Assembly (NCBI RefSeq): GCF_007489275.1
Contig: NZ_VLNR01000001.1
Span: forward strand, 1,206-65,205
Length of the DNA: 64,000 nt
Source: Aquimarina algiphila
GTDB lineage: Bacteria > Bacteroidota > Bacteroidia > Flavobacteriales > Flavobacteriaceae
Direction of reading: 5' to 3'
Numbering within the stretch: position 1 is the first letter of the stretch; each line of letters begins with the position of its first letter. A program made the translations under genes and the position numbers. This document shows positions 1 to 60,663 of this stretch, piece after piece. A model generated the notes under the pieces. That model was given only the letters and a program-made list of their open reading frames with translations, had not been told where the DNA came from and did no database searches.

Positions 1-430
1 AATTTATGATTCGAAGAAATTATGCGAAATCTTTTGAGTGATTTAAAAATAGAATCTTATCAAAGATCACAGCAATGACCATTATTCAATATATCAATAG
101 GTTTGAATTCAACAGAAATATAAACAACCTAAAAATTAATATTAACTAAATGCACAACGGGTTAATATAAATATAGTATAGGATACTATTCGTTTTGATT
201 GATTCATCTTGTATAAAATTAATATGATTACTTACTTTTATTGCGAATTCGCATTGATTTGACAAAGTGTTGTTAAAAAAGGTTACAAAATTGTTATTTA
301 ACACTTCGATAAATACATTATTTGTATTAATATGTATACCTTAAATATTCTCAACTCTTCAATAATACTAAGGGTTGATATATAAAAGTCATTTGCAAAT
401 GTTACTTTTGAAATATTAAAGAATAGCATT
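1..430. other. Intergenic region without a recognised gene
   Basis: This AT-rich stretch at the window edge shows no convincing reading frame. The only signal I can name is TACTTTTG at 403-410, which fits the Bacteroidetes -7 element (TAnnTTTG) and lies 20 bases before the gene starting at 431. No good TTTG sits 19-21 bases upstream, so the promoter call is weak. Confidence 0.35.
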
Positions 431-55204: not shown

Positions 55205-55370
55205 AAAGTTAAATTTTTACAATTGTTTCTATTGTTTACAAATATGATCTTAATTAGATCTATTTCATTTATTTTTTTGGGAATTTTATAATGAAACAAG
55301 TCATTAATTATTGAAATAACAAAAGTTTAAGAATACTGTTAATTTAATTTTCTCTAAAAGTAAAAAATTA

Positions 55371-55378
55371 TACATTTG
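55371..55378 (+). promoter_or_regulatory. -7 promoter element of the threonine operon leader
   Basis: TACATTTG matches the Bacteroidetes -7 element exactly. It lies 23 bases before the leader ATG at 55402, so transcription would start near 55383 and include the whole leader peptide. The -33 is only a T-rich stretch near 55348. Confidence 0.6.
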
Positions 55379-55401
55379 AACTCACAAAGCAAAGCAAATT
55401 A

Positions 55402-55515
55402 ATGTTTAGTACCATTATCATATCGGCTTTATTAATAACCTTAGGAACAACACTAGTATCTAAGGCTTCTTCTATTACACGTACTACTACAATTACTATT
55501 ACCCTTAGGGGTTAA
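55402..55515 (+). CDS. Threonine operon leader peptide (attenuator)
   Basis: This 37-codon ORF upstream of thrA encodes 10 Thr and 7 Ile; residues 25-34 read ITRTTTITIT. That is the composition of the E. coli thrL peptide and marks regulation by ribosome stalling when threonyl- or isoleucyl-tRNA is scarce. The ATG follows a -7 element by 23 bases and stops 95 bases before thrA. The sequence after the stop contains mutually exclusive pairings (55513-55568). It was missed by ordinary length cutoffs. I infer function from composition and position. Confidence 0.8.
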   Translation: MFSTIIISALLITLGTTLVSKASSITRTTTITITLRG

Positions 55516-55568
55516 TTCATTTATATAGTATCGCCAGAACATGTACATAATTCATAAGAATGAATTAT
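55513..55568 (+). promoter_or_regulatory. Alternative hairpins of the threonine attenuator
   Basis: ATAATTCAT (55547-55555) pairs with ATGAATTAT (55560-55568), with a four-base loop. Alternatively TAATTCATT (55513-55521), which begins with the leader's stop codon, pairs with AATGAATTA (55559-55567). Both use the same downstream arm, so only one can form, and a stalled ribosome would shift the balance. The downstream hairpin is AU-rich with no strong T run, so it could act on translation or with a factor. Confidence 0.55.
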
Positions 55569-55610
55569 CAGACATAAGCTTTTATTATTAATTCAACTAA
55601 AAAATATATT

Positions 55611-58055
55611 ATGAACGTTCTAAAATTTGGAGGTTCTTCTGTTGCAAATGCAACTACAATAGAAAGCGTAATAGATATTGTAAGGCAACAGTCAGAAAAG
55701 CAATCTTTATATGTTGTTGTTTCTGCAATGGGCGGAGTTACTGATTTATTGTTACAAGCCGGCGAAGAGGCTTCTAACAATAATGAAGATTACAAAAAGA
55801 CATTAGTAGAAATCGAGAAAAAGCATCTTGAAGCTGTAAAAAGCCTCATTCCTGTAATCTCGCAAAGTGCCATAATTAGTAAAGTCAAATCACAGCTTAA
55901 CACTTTGGAGTCTTTATGTGAAGGAGTGTATTTATTAAGTGAATTATCTCCAAAAACCGCTGCTGTAATTGCCAGTTTTGGAGAAATACTTTCTTCTTAC
56001 ATCATAGTAGAAGCTGCAAAAGTAAAAGGCTTAGATATCATCCTAAAAGATTCACGAGAATTAATTGTTAAAACCATTAATTCAAAAGTTACTATTGACT
56101 ATAAAGAAACTAATGATAATATTAAAGAGTTTGCAGATCATAATACACATAAAGTAAGTCTTTTTCCGGGTTTTGTCGCTAGAACAAAGGATGGGGAACC
56201 TACCACACTAGGTAGAGGAGGTTCTGATTTTACCGCAGCTATTCTCGCAGCTGCTACTAATGCAGATGAGTTACAAATATGGACAGATGTGAGTGGTATG
56301 TATACCGCTAATCCCAAATTGGTAAAACAAGCCAAACCTGTGCATCATATCTCATATCAGGAAGCAATGGAGCTTTCACATTTTGGTGCTAAAGTAATCT
56401 ATCCTCCCACTATACACCCTGTATTAGAAAAAGATATTCCGATACTGATAAAAAATACATTTAAACCCGAAGATCAAGGAACGCTCGTTACTAGAAAAGT
56501 AAATGATCGCAAAAGACCTGTTACAGGGATTAGTCATATTGATAGCATATCCATTATTTCATTAGAAGGAAGTGGTATGGTAGGAATACCAGGGTTTTCA
56601 AAACGTTTATTCGAAACTCTTTTTCTTGAAAATATAAATGTTATTTTGATAACTCAAGCTTCATCCGAGCATTCTATATGTCTTGCAATAGAAGCTACTG
56701 ATGCAAGAAAAGCAAAAGAAGTACTCGATACCACATTCGAATTTGAAATCTCCAAACATAAATTAGATCCAGTGAAGATTGAGGATGATGTAGCGATTAT
56801 AGCTCTGGTAGGTGACAATATGTATCATCATCAAGGACTAAGCGGAAAAATGTTTAGTACTTTAGGAAAAAACAATGTTAATATTAGAGCCATTGCTCAA
56901 GGTGCTTCAGAAAAAAACATCTCTGTGGTTATAGAGAAAAAAGATATTAAGAAGGCATTAAACACATTACATGAACGATTCTTCGAAGTAAAAACCAAAC
57001 AATTAAACCTCTTTATTACCGGTGTCGGAAATGTTGGGAGTAAATTAATAGAACAACTTGAACAACAAAAAAGCTATCTAAAAGACAAATTAAGGTTAAA
57101 GATAAGAGTAGTTGCTATTTCGAATTCCCGGAAAATGATCTTTGATGAACATGGAATTGGTTTAGATTCATGGGTTCAAAAATTGGAAAAAGGAGAAAAA
57201 GCAGATGCAAGAGAATTTTTTGCCAAAGCCAAAGAGATGAATTTAAGAAACTCTATTTTTGTTGATAATACTGCTAATCCAGATATTGCCAAAATATATA
57301 AACATTATCTCGCAGAGAGTATGGCTGTAGTTACCTGTAATAAAATTGCATGTGCAGATGAATATACTAACTATGAGGAATTACAAAATTTATCAAGAAA
57401 ATTTAACGCTTCTTTTTTATACGAAACCAATGTTGGTGCTGGTTTACCAATAATTGGCACACTAAATAATTTAATTGCATCTGGAGATAATATTCATAAA
57501 ATTCAGGCAGTATTATCTGGTAGTCTTAATTTTGTCTTTAATAATTATAAAGAAGGTGTTACTTTTCATGACATTGTAAAACAAGCACAACAGCAAGGAT
57601 ACACAGAACCTGATCCTAAAATAGATTTAAGCGGAATCGATGTTGCCCGTAAAATTCTCATTCTTGCTCGCGAAAGTGGAAAGGTAATGGAATTAGAAAA
57701 TATCGAAAATGAAGCATTTCTTCCAAAGGAAAGTTTAGAGACTATGAGTGTAGACGCCTTTCTGCAATCTGTAGAACAAAATGAAAAGCATTTTAAAGAA
57801 ATTTTGGACAGTGCAAACAAAAAGGGATGTCGTCTAAAATATGTTGCACAATATGAAGAAGGCGAAGCCAAGGTAGGATTACAATTTATACCATCTGATC
57901 ATCCTTTTTATAATCTTGAAGGAAGTGATAACATCGTACTCTTTTACACAGATCGATACCCTAAACAACCATTAATAGTAAAGGGTGCTGGTGCTGGAGC
58001 CGAAGTAACTGCCTCAGGTATATTTGCAGATATTATTAGAATTGGTAAAAAATAA
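55611..58055 (+). CDS. thrA: Bifunctional aspartokinase / homoserine dehydrogenase I
   Basis: The 814-residue enzyme (820 in E. coli) has the aspartokinase start 'VLKFGGSSVANATTIE', 'GRGGSDFTAAILAAATNA' near 205, ACT regulatory domains (about 315-460) and a homoserine dehydrogenase (about 463-814, 'LFITGVGNVGSKLIEQL' and 'LSGSLNFVFNN'). It does the first and third steps from aspartate toward threonine and is usually feedback-inhibited by threonine through the ACT domains. It is the first structural gene of the threonine operon behind the leader peptide. Confidence 0.96.
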   Translation: MNVLKFGGSSVANATTIESVIDIVRQQSEKQSLYVVVSAMGGVTDLLLQAGEEASNNNEDYKKTLVEIEKKHLEAVKSLIPVISQSAIISKVKSQLNTLESLCEGVYLLSELSPKTAAVIASFGEILSSYIIVEAAKVKGLDIILKDSRELIVKTINSKVTIDYKETNDNIKEFADHNTHKVSLFPGFVARTKDGEPTTLGRGGSDFTAAILAAATNADELQIWTDVSGMYTANPKLVKQAKPVHHISYQEAMELSHFGAKVIYPPTIHPVLEKDIPILIKNTFKPEDQGTLVTRKVNDRKRPVTGISHIDSISIISLEGSGMVGIPGFSKRLFETLFLENINVILITQASSEHSICLAIEATDARKAKEVLDTTFEFEISKHKLDPVKIEDDVAIIALVGDNMYHHQGLSGKMFSTLGKNNVNIRAIAQGASEKNISVVIEKKDIKKALNTLHERFFEVKTKQLNLFITGVGNVGSKLIEQLEQQKSYLKDKLRLKIRVVAISNSRKMIFDEHGIGLDSWVQKLEKGEKADAREFFAKAKEMNLRNSIFVDNTANPDIAKIYKHYLAESMAVVTCNKIACADEYTNYEELQNLSRKFNASFLYETNVGAGLPIIGTLNNLIASGDNIHKIQAVLSGSLNFVFNNYKEGVTFHDIVKQAQQQGYTEPDPKIDLSGIDVARKILILARESGKVMELENIENEAFLPKESLETMSVDAFLQSVEQNEKHFKEILDSANKKGCRLKYVAQYEEGEAKVGLQFIPSDHPFYNLEGSDNIVLFYTDRYPKQPLIVKGAGAGAEVTASGIFADIIRIGKK

Positions 58056-58059
58056 TAAT

Positions 58060-58992
58060 ATGAAAAGTATTAGAATATTTACTCCTGCCACCGTCGCAAA
58101 TCTTTCTTGTGGATTCGATGTATTAGGATGTTGTTTAGACACGGTTGGTGATGAAATGTTAATCTCACTTACTTCTGAGCCTGGAATAAGAATTACCAAA
58201 ATTGAAGGTGCAGATCTTCCTATGGAAACAGATAAAAATGTAGCCGGTGTAGCCGTTCAGGCATTACTTCTTGATTACAAAAAAGATTTAGGGGTAACGA
58301 TAGAAATATATAAAAAAATTAAAGCCGGAAGTGGAATTGGTAGTAGTGCTGCAAGTAGTGCTGGTGCAGTTTGGGCAGTAAATCATCTATTAGGAAACCC
58401 TTATACACCTCAGGAATTAGTAAAATTTGCCATGGAAGGAGAAAAACTGGCCAGTGGTAATGCCCATGCTGATAATGTAGCTCCTGCTCTACTTGGAGGG
58501 TTCACCTTGGTACGTAGTTATAATCCACTTGATGTAATAAAGTTACATTCTCCTAAAGATCTTGTGATGACCGTAATTCATCCACAAATAGAAGTAAAAA
58601 CATCAGATTCAAGATCAGTGATTAAGCATAATGTATCTTTGCAACAAGCGATTCATCAATGGGGAAACGTTGGTGGATTGGTAGCTGGTTTATTTACCGA
58701 AGATTATAATCTGATAGGTAGAAGTTTAGAAGATGTAATTATAGAACCTCTGAGATCAATTCTAATCCCTGAATTTAAAAATGTAAAGAATGCAGCAATT
58801 GAAAAAGGAGCTCTAGGATGTGGAATTTCTGGATCCGGCCCTTCTATTTTTGCATTAAGTAAAGGACTAAAGATTGCAACAGATGTAGCTGAAGCAATAA
58901 GAGTAGTTTATGCAAAAACGGGACTTGAATTTGATATTCATATATCACAAATAAATAGTAACGGAGTCAAAATAATCGAAGAAATCCAATGA
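58060..58992 (+). CDS. thrB: Homoserine kinase
   Basis: The start is ATG 58060, four bases after the thrA stop, giving 310 residues as in E. coli. It is a GHMP-family kinase: 'FTPATVANLSCGFDVLG', ATP loop 'KAGSGIGSSAASSAGAVWA' (P-loop-like) and 'GISGSGPSIFAL'. It phosphorylates homoserine, the fourth step of the pathway. Its end overlaps the ridA start by four bases (ATGA), which indicates translational coupling. Confidence 0.95.
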   Translation: MKSIRIFTPATVANLSCGFDVLGCCLDTVGDEMLISLTSEPGIRITKIEGADLPMETDKNVAGVAVQALLLDYKKDLGVTIEIYKKIKAGSGIGSSAASSAGAVWAVNHLLGNPYTPQELVKFAMEGEKLASGNAHADNVAPALLGGFTLVRSYNPLDVIKLHSPKDLVMTVIHPQIEVKTSDSRSVIKHNVSLQQAIHQWGNVGGLVAGLFTEDYNLIGRSLEDVIIEPLRSILIPEFKNVKNAAIEKGALGCGISGSGPSIFALSKGLKIATDVAEAIRVVYAKTGLEFDIHISQINSNGVKIIEEIQ

Positions 58993-59351
58993 AAGAAATC
59001 AAAAAAATATCAACAGGAGCACCTTGGGAGGACATTGTAGGGTACTCTAGAGCCATAAAAATTGGAGATGTAATCGAAATTTCTGGTACTACCGCAAAAG
59101 GTGCAAATGAATACGAACAAACTCTTGCTATTATCAAAATTGCAGAAAAAGCATTAAAAGAGTTTGGTGCAGATTTAAGTAATGTAATAAGAACAAGAAT
59201 GTACTGTACAGATATCTCCCAATGGGAAGAGATTGGTAAAGCACATGGAGAGTTTTTTAGCAAAACAAGACCCGTGACCACAATGGTAGAAGTTTCAAAG
59301 TTAATTTCTCCAGATATCTTAGTAGAAATAGAATTCTCTGCAATTCTCTAA
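58989..59351 (+). CDS. ridA: RidA-family deaminase (2-iminoacid hydrolase)
   Basis: The 120-residue protein has the YjgF/RidA pattern: 'GAPWEDIVGYSRAIKIGD', 'VIEISGTTAKG', the Arg in 'VIRTRMYCTDISQWEE' and 'TTMVEVSKLISPDILVEIEF'. RidA hydrolyses reactive enamine/imine intermediates released by PLP enzymes such as threonine synthase or dehydratase. Its place between thrB and thrC, overlapping thrB, suggests protection of this pathway. The N-terminus is typical of a subgroup fitted to an operon role. Confidence 0.88.
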   Translation: MKEIKKISTGAPWEDIVGYSRAIKIGDVIEISGTTAKGANEYEQTLAIIKIAEKALKEFGADLSNVIRTRMYCTDISQWEEIGKAHGEFFSKTRPVTTMVEVSKLISPDILVEIEFSAIL

Positions 59352-59373: not shown

Positions 59374-60663
59374 ATGCAATACTATAGTTTACATAAAGAC
59401 TCACCAAAAGTACCATTCTCAGAAGCGGTAATAAAAGGATTAGCTCCTGATCGTGGTTTATATTTTCCAGAATCCATTCAATCTTTATCTACATCTTTTT
59501 TTGAAAATATTGAAGAACTAGATAATGTAGAAATTGCTTTTCAAGCCATCCAACAATTCATTGGTGAAGAAATACCAGAGGTAGAATTAAGAGATATTCT
59601 TACAGATGTTTTAAGTTTTGATTTCCCTGTAGTTGAAATTGAAGATAATCTAGGAACACTAGAATTGTTTCATGGTCCAACAATGGCTTTTAAAGATGTA
59701 GGAGCCCGCTTTATGGCAAGATGTATGGGATATTTTAATCGAGCTAATGAAAATCATGTAACTGTTTTAGTAGCTACATCGGGAGATACAGGTGGTGCTG
59801 TAGCCAATGGTTTTCTAGGGGTAAAAGGTGTAGATGTGGTAATTTTATATCCAAAAGGAAAAGTAAGTGAAATACAAGAAAAGCAATTAACAACTCTGGG
59901 GCAAAATATAACAGCTTTAGAAATCGACGGTGTTTTTGATGATTGTCAGGATATGGTAAAAACCGCGTTCTTAGACACTGACATTACTTCTTATAAACAA
60001 CTGACTTCTGCTAATTCTATTAATGTTGCCAGATGGCTTCCTCAATTATTTTATTTCTTATTTGCATACAAACAGGTAAAAAGTAAAGGAAAAGATATTG
60101 TATTCTCTGTTCCTAGTGGGAACTTTGGAAATATCTGTGCAGGAATTGTTGCTCAAAAACTTGGATTACCTGTAAAACACTTTATAGCATCTACTAATGT
60201 TAATGATACAGTAGTTCGTTATCTAGAAACTTCAGAATATGATCCAAAACCTTCTAAAGCTACAATTTCTAATGCCATGGATGTTGGAAACCCAAGTAAT
60301 TTTATAAGAATACAACAACTTTTTGATAACGATTTCTCTATTCTAAAAAACAATTTTTCTGCATATAGCTTTGATGATCAACAGACCAAAAAAGCAATGG
60401 GAAAAATCTATAAAAAATCAAATTATGTAGCCGACCCTCATGGCGCTGTTGGTTATTTAGGGCTACAAAAACAAGGATTAAAATCTACCGAGTATGGTAT
60501 ATTTCTGGAAACTGCACATCCCGTCAAGTTTCTTGACGTAGTCGAGGACACTCTAAACATTAAGGTAGAAATACCTTCGCAAATTCAAAAAGTAATGAAT
60601 AAGGAAAAGCATAGTATTCCGATAAAGAGCTATGAAGCATTAAAGGAGTTCTTATTACAATAA
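59374..60663 (+). CDS. thrC: Threonine synthase
   Basis: The 429-residue PLP enzyme (428 in E. coli) has the PLP lysine K107 in 'HGPTMAFKDVGARF', phosphate-binding 'ATSGDTGGAVANGF', 'SANSINVARWLPQ' and 'FSVPSGNFGNICAG'. It converts phosphohomoserine to threonine, the last step. It follows ridA by 22 bases. The gene's last 24 coding bases form the left arm of a strong hairpin that ends the operon (60640-60675). Confidence 0.95.
   Translation: MQYYSLHKDSPKVPFSEAVIKGLAPDRGLYFPESIQSLSTSFFENIEELDNVEIAFQAIQQFIGEEIPEVELRDILTDVLSFDFPVVEIEDNLGTLELFHGPTMAFKDVGARFMARCMGYFNRANENHVTVLVATSGDTGGAVANGFLGVKGVDVVILYPKGKVSEIQEKQLTTLGQNITALEIDGVFDDCQDMVKTAFLDTDITSYKQLTSANSINVARWLPQLFYFLFAYKQVKSKGKDIVFSVPSGNFGNICAGIVAQKLGLPVKHFIASTNVNDTVVRYLETSEYDPKPSKATISNAMDVGNPSNFIRIQQLFDNDFSILKNNFSAYSFDDQQTKKAMGKIYKKSNYVADPHGAVGYLGLQKQGLKSTEYGIFLETAHPVKFLDVVEDTLNIKVEIPSQIQKVMNKEKHSIPIKSYEALKEFLLQ

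Follow-up and report, generated by a model that had tools for sequence, protein, structure and literature searches.

Enterobacterial thrL is a leader ORF of threonine and isoleucine codons located directly before thrA. An ORF of the same kind precedes thrA in a 64,000-nucleotide stretch of DNA from Aquimarina algiphila (hereafter the window), and the question is how such a leader may control the genes behind it. A preliminary description, made from the sequence of the window, had proposed thrL-like attenuation. The Thr/Ile leader peptide and the AU-rich hairpin of that proposal stand, while its thrL-like logic is not supported: an intrinsic terminator is absent and the alternative pairing that had been proposed does not covary.

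The threonine operon and its leader peptide

The gene order is a promoter-like element, the leader ORF and thrA-thrB-ridA-like-thrC (Table 1). The preliminary description had placed a TAnnTTTG element 23 bases before the leader ORF, and TACATTTG, which we take to be a flavobacterial promoter element of that type, is indeed found there within a block that is nearly invariant among the window and the eight Aquimarina loci compared. The gene directly downstream, described earlier as thrA, is identified as such by NF006959; its closest counterpart in the named collection, from an uncultured Aquimarina, is 94% identical. A Rid-family-like gene, with a match below the cut-off, is placed between thrB and thrC. 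Elsewhere in the genome, a reading frame resembling aspartate kinase lies at G000:C24:33069-34412 (L066); its matching part is interrupted by a single TAA. A search of the whole window against Rfam at gathering scores gave no matches, and a search of 55300-55700 with E values up to 5 gave a single chance match to a snoRNA family on the opposite strand and nothing relevant.

Table 1. Features of the thr leader and operon in the window
Feature	Position	Strand	Evidence
Promoter-like -7 element TACATTTG, TAnnTTTG type	55371-55378	+	sequence; 23 bases 5' of leader ATG
Leader ORF, 37 codons, Thr/Ile-rich, product MFSTIIISALLITLGTTLVSKASSITRTTTITITLRG	55402-55515	+	translation, conservation
P0 5' strand, leader codons 2-4	55407-55412	+	pairs with 55481-55486; arm-swap z -6.2
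H1, hairpin within ORF, arms 55439-55444/55460-55465	55439-55465	+	arm-swap z -3.0
Regulatory codon run ITRTTTITIT	55474-55503	+	translation; predicted site of ribosome stalling
P0 3' strand, start of Thr run	55481-55486	+	pairs with 55407-55412; arm-swap z -6.2
H2, stop-codon hairpin ACCC-UUAG-GGGU	55501-55512	+	123/171 thrA upstream regions; 41/41 aligned congeners
Leader stop codon	55513-55515	+	directly after H2
Post-stop spacer, part of C-rich, G-poor stretch	55516-55546	+	H2-to-thrA composition, 113 leaders
H3, AU-rich hairpin, arms 55547-55555/55560-55568, no U run after	55547-55568	+	covariation
thrA, bifunctional aspartate kinase/homoserine dehydrogenase I	55611-58055	+	NF006959, 1055 bits, cut-off 726
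thrB, homoserine kinase	58060-58992	+	NF002288 397 bits, TIGR00191 229 bits; both above cut-off
Rid-family-like protein, operon member	58989-59351	+	TIGR00004 47 bits, below cut-off 106
thrC, threonine synthase	59374-60663	+	TIGR00260 279 bits, cut-off 167

The leader ORF, with 10 Thr and 7 Ile among its 37 codons and the run ITRTTTITIT, was found in translation just as first described. The conserved Thr/Ile-rich ORF that the preliminary description proposed to look for in relatives is present at two levels. Among 57 upstream regions of the window's genus, 53 of them distinct, the leader occurs in 52 of the distinct ones (the exception is L337), and 49 of these 52 are 34 to 42 codons long. Third codon positions are the most variable in the genus (0.36, against 0.26 for first and 0.29 for second positions), a mild sign of translation. 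In the family, 158 of 199 genomes were matched for genus representatives and 108 upstream regions besides the window were counted; an ORF with a Thr/Ile-rich tail lies 5' of thrA in 75 of the 108 representatives, against 17 of 1080 dinucleotide shuffles made from the same upstream DNA. With a slightly looser leader score, 88 of the 108 contain both the leader and the stop-codon hairpin H2 described below. The start of thrA was not located in L030, L065, L172, L188, L200 and L201, and the distant aspartate kinases L043-L063 were skipped. Three loci (L092, L135 and L162) possess the Thr/Ile leader and lack H2 by the H2 test. Several metagenome-assembled flavobacteria (L018, L019, L032, L040, L042 and L140) possess thrA with no recognisable combination of threonine leader and stop hairpin upstream.

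AT-rich DNA commonly contains short ORFs, but the excess over shuffles, the narrow length range and the third-position variability leave practically no room for the leader being an accidental open frame. That it is a threonine leader peptide read by ribosomes, as had been proposed, is strongly supported by its codons, its conservation across the family and more widely, its position, and the existence of similar his and trp leaders in Flavobacteriaceae. Judged by its codons and its conservation, the leader very probably senses the charging of Thr-tRNA, a ribosome being slowed at 55474-55503 when Thr-tRNA is short; perhaps isoleucine tRNA is sensed also.

The stop-codon hairpin and the covarying helices

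Three structures, H2, P0 and H1, were absent from the preliminary description and were found in this analysis. H2 is a short GC hairpin located at or adjacent to the last Thr codon and overlapping or adjoining the stop codon. It was identified, with a test that requires at least three G-C pairs, in 123 of 171 thrA upstream regions, the remaining 48 lacking the combination of leader and H2; this set excludes L064, L066, L067 and L177 (duplicate, paralogues or near-duplicate). The 5' end of H2 in the window is the last Thr codon and the stop codon follows the hairpin; some H2 hairpins enclose the stop codon. H2 is invariant in all 41 aligned congeners. Its sequence is ACCCUUAGGGGU in Aquimarina, ACCCCUUUGGGGU in Maribacter relatives and CAACCCUUUGGGGUUG in Flavobacterium-type leaders, and in Cyclobacterium and Echinicola the hairpin is made of different bases (ACGGGGUAAUCCCGU). 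The 18-base H2 pattern has one exact match in the genome and still one when up to two mismatches are allowed; the backward-read control of the pattern also has one.

The RNAalifold consensus of the Flavobacterium-type group recovered H2 alone, and for this reason helix scoring and arm-swapping tests were used. A first swap map pooled the groups and was confounded by group composition, so within-group maps and targeted tests were relied on. The targeted test covered 51 of the 53 congeners, leaving out L337 (no leader) and L338 (no anchor). H3 gave z -9.9 and P0 z -6.2, in both cases with none of 200 permutations as good, and H1 gave z -3.0 over the 51 species and -2.4 over 41 closer ones, with 74.4% of cells paired. 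Within the Flavobacterium-type group P0 and H1 reach z -5.0 and -5.1, and H3 covaries in all four groups tested (z -8.9, -4.7, -4.6 and -4.2).

H3 corresponds to the hairpin that the preliminary description had formed from 55547-55555 and an arm at 55559-55568, and it is present and conserved with compensatory changes (the arm being 55560-55568): one pair is G-C in 26 sequences and A-U in 13, another U-A in 19 and C-G in 15. A hairpin of the H3 type is found in 91 of 123 leaders, and native energy lies below that of shuffles in 82 of 123. Its 3' end lies a median of 40 nt 5' of thrA (86 leaders). The whole structure as drawn for the window, which is itself one of the compared sequences, has 59 cells with both partners changed; shuffles give 27.3, and sliding the partners gives no more than 19. 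Counted by pair, such double changes are not outstanding (9 pairs, 7.7 in shuffles, with 111 of 500 shuffles reaching the observed value), nor are further pair types (29, 27.9 in shuffles, with 172 of 500). Kinship among the species inflates these numbers. Like the ORF, the structures P0, H1, H2 and H3 are established by comparison among sequences.

The competing pairing of the H3 3' arm (55559-55568) with 55513-55521, part of the proposed attenuator, is possible on paper in the window, because TAATTCAT after the stop codon is a repeat of the H3 5' arm. Over 51 congeners it is not supported (z +0.4, with 131 of 200 permutations equalling or exceeding it). The 2:3 pairing gave z -0.4, 0.2 and 1.5 in three groups; since H2 is nearly invariant within groups, covariation tests have limited power for antiterminators. 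The 1:3 pairing, of Thr codons with the H3 5' arm, looked good in the pooled map and gave z -4.8 in the Maribacter-type map; it was dropped with z -0.2 over 51 congeneric species. Its energy is below that of codon shuffles in 8 of 10 Aquimarina and 55 of 123 leaders overall, not in the other groups, and it is weak in the window (-4.3 kcal/mol against -4.0 shuffled). In a helix scan of the Flavobacterium-type group, two GGGG alternatives rich in G-U pairs ranked fourth and fifth. Hiding the H2 5' arm in folding changed the probability of H3 little (0.77 to 0.73) and lowered the accessibility of C from 0.65 to 0.56, with a decrease in 94 of 113 leaders; because of this drop, the thr leader may contain a weak RNA switch. 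In the swap maps, the thrA start region had no outstanding partner apart from a weak pairing of 45..55 and 99..109, with a mean of -1.2 kcal/mol.

Maribacter-type leaders (for example L081, L098, L107 and L167) possess an early conserved ACGGAC complementary to a post-stop GUCCGU, replaced in L082 by CGAAC with GUUCG. Statistical support for this pairing among Maribacter-type leaders is weak (z -2.8, matched by 0 of 200 permutations); the two exact motifs occur together in 7 of 41 leaders (co-occurrence p 0.026). In Aquimarina it gave z +2.4.

Terminators and base composition in thr, his and trp leaders

No intrinsic terminator was found between the leader and thrA in the window. The terminator test asks for a hairpin whose energy reaches -8 kcal/mol and a U run behind it. 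It is passed by 4 of 113 thr leaders (those of the 123 in which H2 and thrA are no more than 110 nt apart), three of them via H2 itself, and the window is not among the four. At least five U within 8 nt after H3 occur in 14 of 86 leaders. In Flavobacteriaceae the same test is passed by 29/29 hisG leaders (median energy -16.8 kcal/mol) and 29/29 trpE leaders (median energy -15.8 kcal/mol). With no ordinary terminator, unlike the his and trp leaders, the thr leader probably uses an off switch other than a termination hairpin. These findings agree with the caveat of the preliminary description that the AU-rich hairpin could affect translation or depend on a factor.

Leader peptides for histidine (HHHH...QAR) and tryptophan (WWW), each backed by a strong terminator, are present in 29 of 30 hisG loci (L232-L261) and 29 of 30 trpE loci (L262-L291), L232 and L273 being the exceptions to the pattern; the hisG leader of A. 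algiphila itself is L236. Their regulatory codons stand just before the stop codon, as in the thr leaders. An Ile/Val-rich ORF precedes ilvD in 14 of 30 loci, where terminator-like hairpins were judged by eye. The own-genome locus L209 (contig C24) contains two tandem Ile/Val-rich leader ORFs (-515 to -452 and -371 to -308, counted from the start of ilvD), each with an apparent intrinsic terminator after it; they would form two serial attenuators ahead of the ilv genes. The arrangement in L226 is similar.

Outside Flavobacteriaceae, 86 thrA upstream regions were examined (L188 and L381 are without a thrA start), and 34 possess a Thr/Ile-run leader. The stop hairpin occurs in all 20 terminator-less leaders and in none of the 14 that bear a terminator. 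C/G is 1.57 without and 1.00 with a terminator, and C exceeds G in 17 of 20 leaders without one against 9 of 13 measured with one. As 13 of the 14 terminator-bearing leaders belong to one family, f41, the split represents one or two evolutionary changes and not 34 independent cases, and a Fisher test of it does not count as independent evidence. The f41 leaders (L187, L189, L194, L364-L367, L376-L378, L380, L383 and L384) contain a GC-rich intrinsic terminator and no stop hairpin; compared with those of Flavobacteriaceae, they indicate that the thr gene uses two architectures within the class. Two further loci, L352 with a stop hairpin plus a terminator-like hairpin and L394 with a terminator, fall below the leader score and outside the 34.

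The thr leaders also contain more C than G. Between H2 and thrA this holds for 113/113 of them (C/G 2.28), whereas among 87 control intergenic stretches it holds for 56% (C/G 1.10); the controls were taken from the window and named loci, with no matching by genus. The largest C excess in 78-nt segments has a median of 15.4% in thr leaders (n=84), 10.3% in hisG (n=29) and 7.7% in trpE (n=29); it is at least 8% in 23 of 29 hisG leaders, which do have terminators. The Thr run is the extreme (C 0.27-0.39, G 0.05-0.09); Thr codons are rich in C because of what they encode. The excess in the window is modest, lying mostly over 55384-55561 and chiefly in the ORF, with a peak of 11.5% (55424-55501), -1.3% at 55504-55581 and 3.8% just after. 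Rho-loading sites are described as marked by C-rich, G-poor unstructured RNA or by C>G bubbles (PMC9160355, PMC9426467).

How the leader may act

We tentatively favour the reading that the thr leader is a Thr-tRNA sensor whose stalled ribosome most likely keeps Rho off; Rho enters this reading through base composition and the absence of a terminator. The leader would set the amount of thr operon mRNA according to charged threonine tRNA. With ample threonine, the ribosome would pass the Thr codons, stop beside H2 and depart; the C-rich, G-poor Thr run and post-stop spacer would then be exposed, and Rho would load and halt RNA polymerase before or early in thrA. With scarce threonine, the ribosome would stall on the Thr run with its front edge against H2, covering or blocking the Rho-loading stretch, and transcription would proceed into thrA. 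We infer the stalling, Rho as effector and the roles of the helices, the last being guesses: P0 and H1 in the ORF may pause polymerase until the first ribosome comes, H2 may help to hold the ribosome on the Thr run, and H3 may mark a pause or release zone.

This Rho-based reading draws on the conservation of the leader in the genus and of leader and H2 in the family, and on the excess of the ORF over shuffles; on the near absence of terminators from thr leaders beside their presence in all hisG and trpE leaders tested; on C exceeding G throughout, with the excess ordered thr, hisG, trpE and most extreme in the Thr run; on antiterminator pairings that do not covary where tested; and on CruR as an experimentally tested precedent (PMC9426467). 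Against it, base composition is weak evidence, given the C-rich hisG leaders that have terminators; the excess in the window is modest and turns negative over 55504-55581; and 3 of the 20 terminator-less leaders outside the family are without C>G. A Rho site would usually need more room than the 60-95 nt of the spacer, the conservation of H2 is far above the need of a mere obstacle, and the roles of P0, H1 and H3 are left unaccounted for; the shift in C accessibility and the two GGGG alternatives would be compatible with a weak RNA switch. It is possible, though doubtful, that the Thr codons serve as sensor and at the same time as the principal site of Rho loading. ACN codons contain C and no G, so that the stalled ribosome would itself hide the Rho site and an RNA switch would be unnecessary.

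Control of translation or mRNA stability is unlikely. Ribosome position would here set the fold of H3 and the spacer, and thus thrA translation or mRNA decay, with termination unaffected. A covarying H3 that ends a median of 40 nt before thrA, with no terminator, is consistent with this, as is speF, where ribosome pausing at upstream ORF codons is described as able to act via an RNase G-sensitive structure (PMC6386406). However, H3 does not overlap the thrA start, pairing of the start region is limited to the single weak pair, and the bias of C over G is left unexplained.

Classical attenuation of the thrL type, in which a stall on Thr codons opens H2 and the freed GGGGUU pairs downstream to block H3 or another terminator, we consider improbable. 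The Thr/Ile leader, H2 at the position of a 1:2 hairpin, the intrinsic terminators of the family's his and trp leaders and of the f41 thr leaders, the two weak GGGG alternatives, and the complementarity of the Thr run to H3 in Maribacter-type leaders and most Aquimarina all speak for it. Against these stand a window with no terminator, the rarity of a U-rich tail after H3, the z scores of the 2:3 and 1:3 pairings and the near constancy of H3 with the H2 5' arm hidden.

Recognition of H3 or of a conserved post-stop C/U motif by an RNA-binding factor, to which the leader merely adds, is quite improbable. Conserved post-stop motifs such as UUCCGUCCGU and UUCUUCAGG and the conservation of H3 would agree with such a factor, but a candidate factor is lacking, and neither the window nor 55300-55700 matched a known RNA family in Rfam.

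Like thrL, the Aquimarina leader is a Thr/Ile-codon ORF directly before thrA, with sensing predicted from its codons; unlike thrL, it is without an intrinsic terminator, a supported antiterminator or an Rfam match, and possesses a stop-codon hairpin starting at the last Thr codon. TnaC of E. coli, an arrest peptide sensing free tryptophan, is a Rho-dependent leader-ORF attenuator. For CruR of Bordetella, a C>G bubble is reported that starts where an upstream ORF ends and extends into the spacer, the stalled ribosome keeping Rho off (PMC9426467). As far as these accounts go, the thr leader resembles CruR and TnaC in having C-rich, G-poor RNA behind its ORF and in lacking an intrinsic terminator, with a stalled ribosome predicted to exclude Rho; they are arrest peptides sensing copper or free tryptophan, whereas the thr leader stall is expected from missing charged tRNA, and its use of Rho is a prediction. 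The his and trp leaders of Flavobacteriaceae share the regulatory-codon logic of the thr leader and differ by their terminators (29/29 and 29/29 vs 4/113).

Lopatovskaya and colleagues reportedly surveyed attenuation in 2010 (cited in PMC4833913). The Bacteroid-trp RNA motif is linked to trp genes. It is described as a predicted cis-regulatory RNA of Bacteroidetes (PMC2864571); no Rfam model matches the window at gathering score. In Flavobacterium psychrophilum, strong clues for leader-peptide attenuation before amino-acid operons have been noted (PMC9723704), so that such attenuation is known in kind; the main text of that study mentions neither threonine nor thrA. No description of the threonine leader, the stop-codon hairpin or the lack of a terminator was found in the open-access literature.

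The present comparison documents family-wide amino-acid leader peptides in Bacteroidota, where little in print was found, and singles out the thr leader among those of Flavobacteriaceae for lacking an intrinsic terminator. If the Thr codons were themselves the Rho site, this would explain a terminator-less thr leader beside his and trp leaders that keep theirs, and one piece of RNA would be sensor and effector site at once, which is highly economical. For the question whether two attenuation chemistries coexist in one cell, the family's his and trp leaders are ready internal controls.
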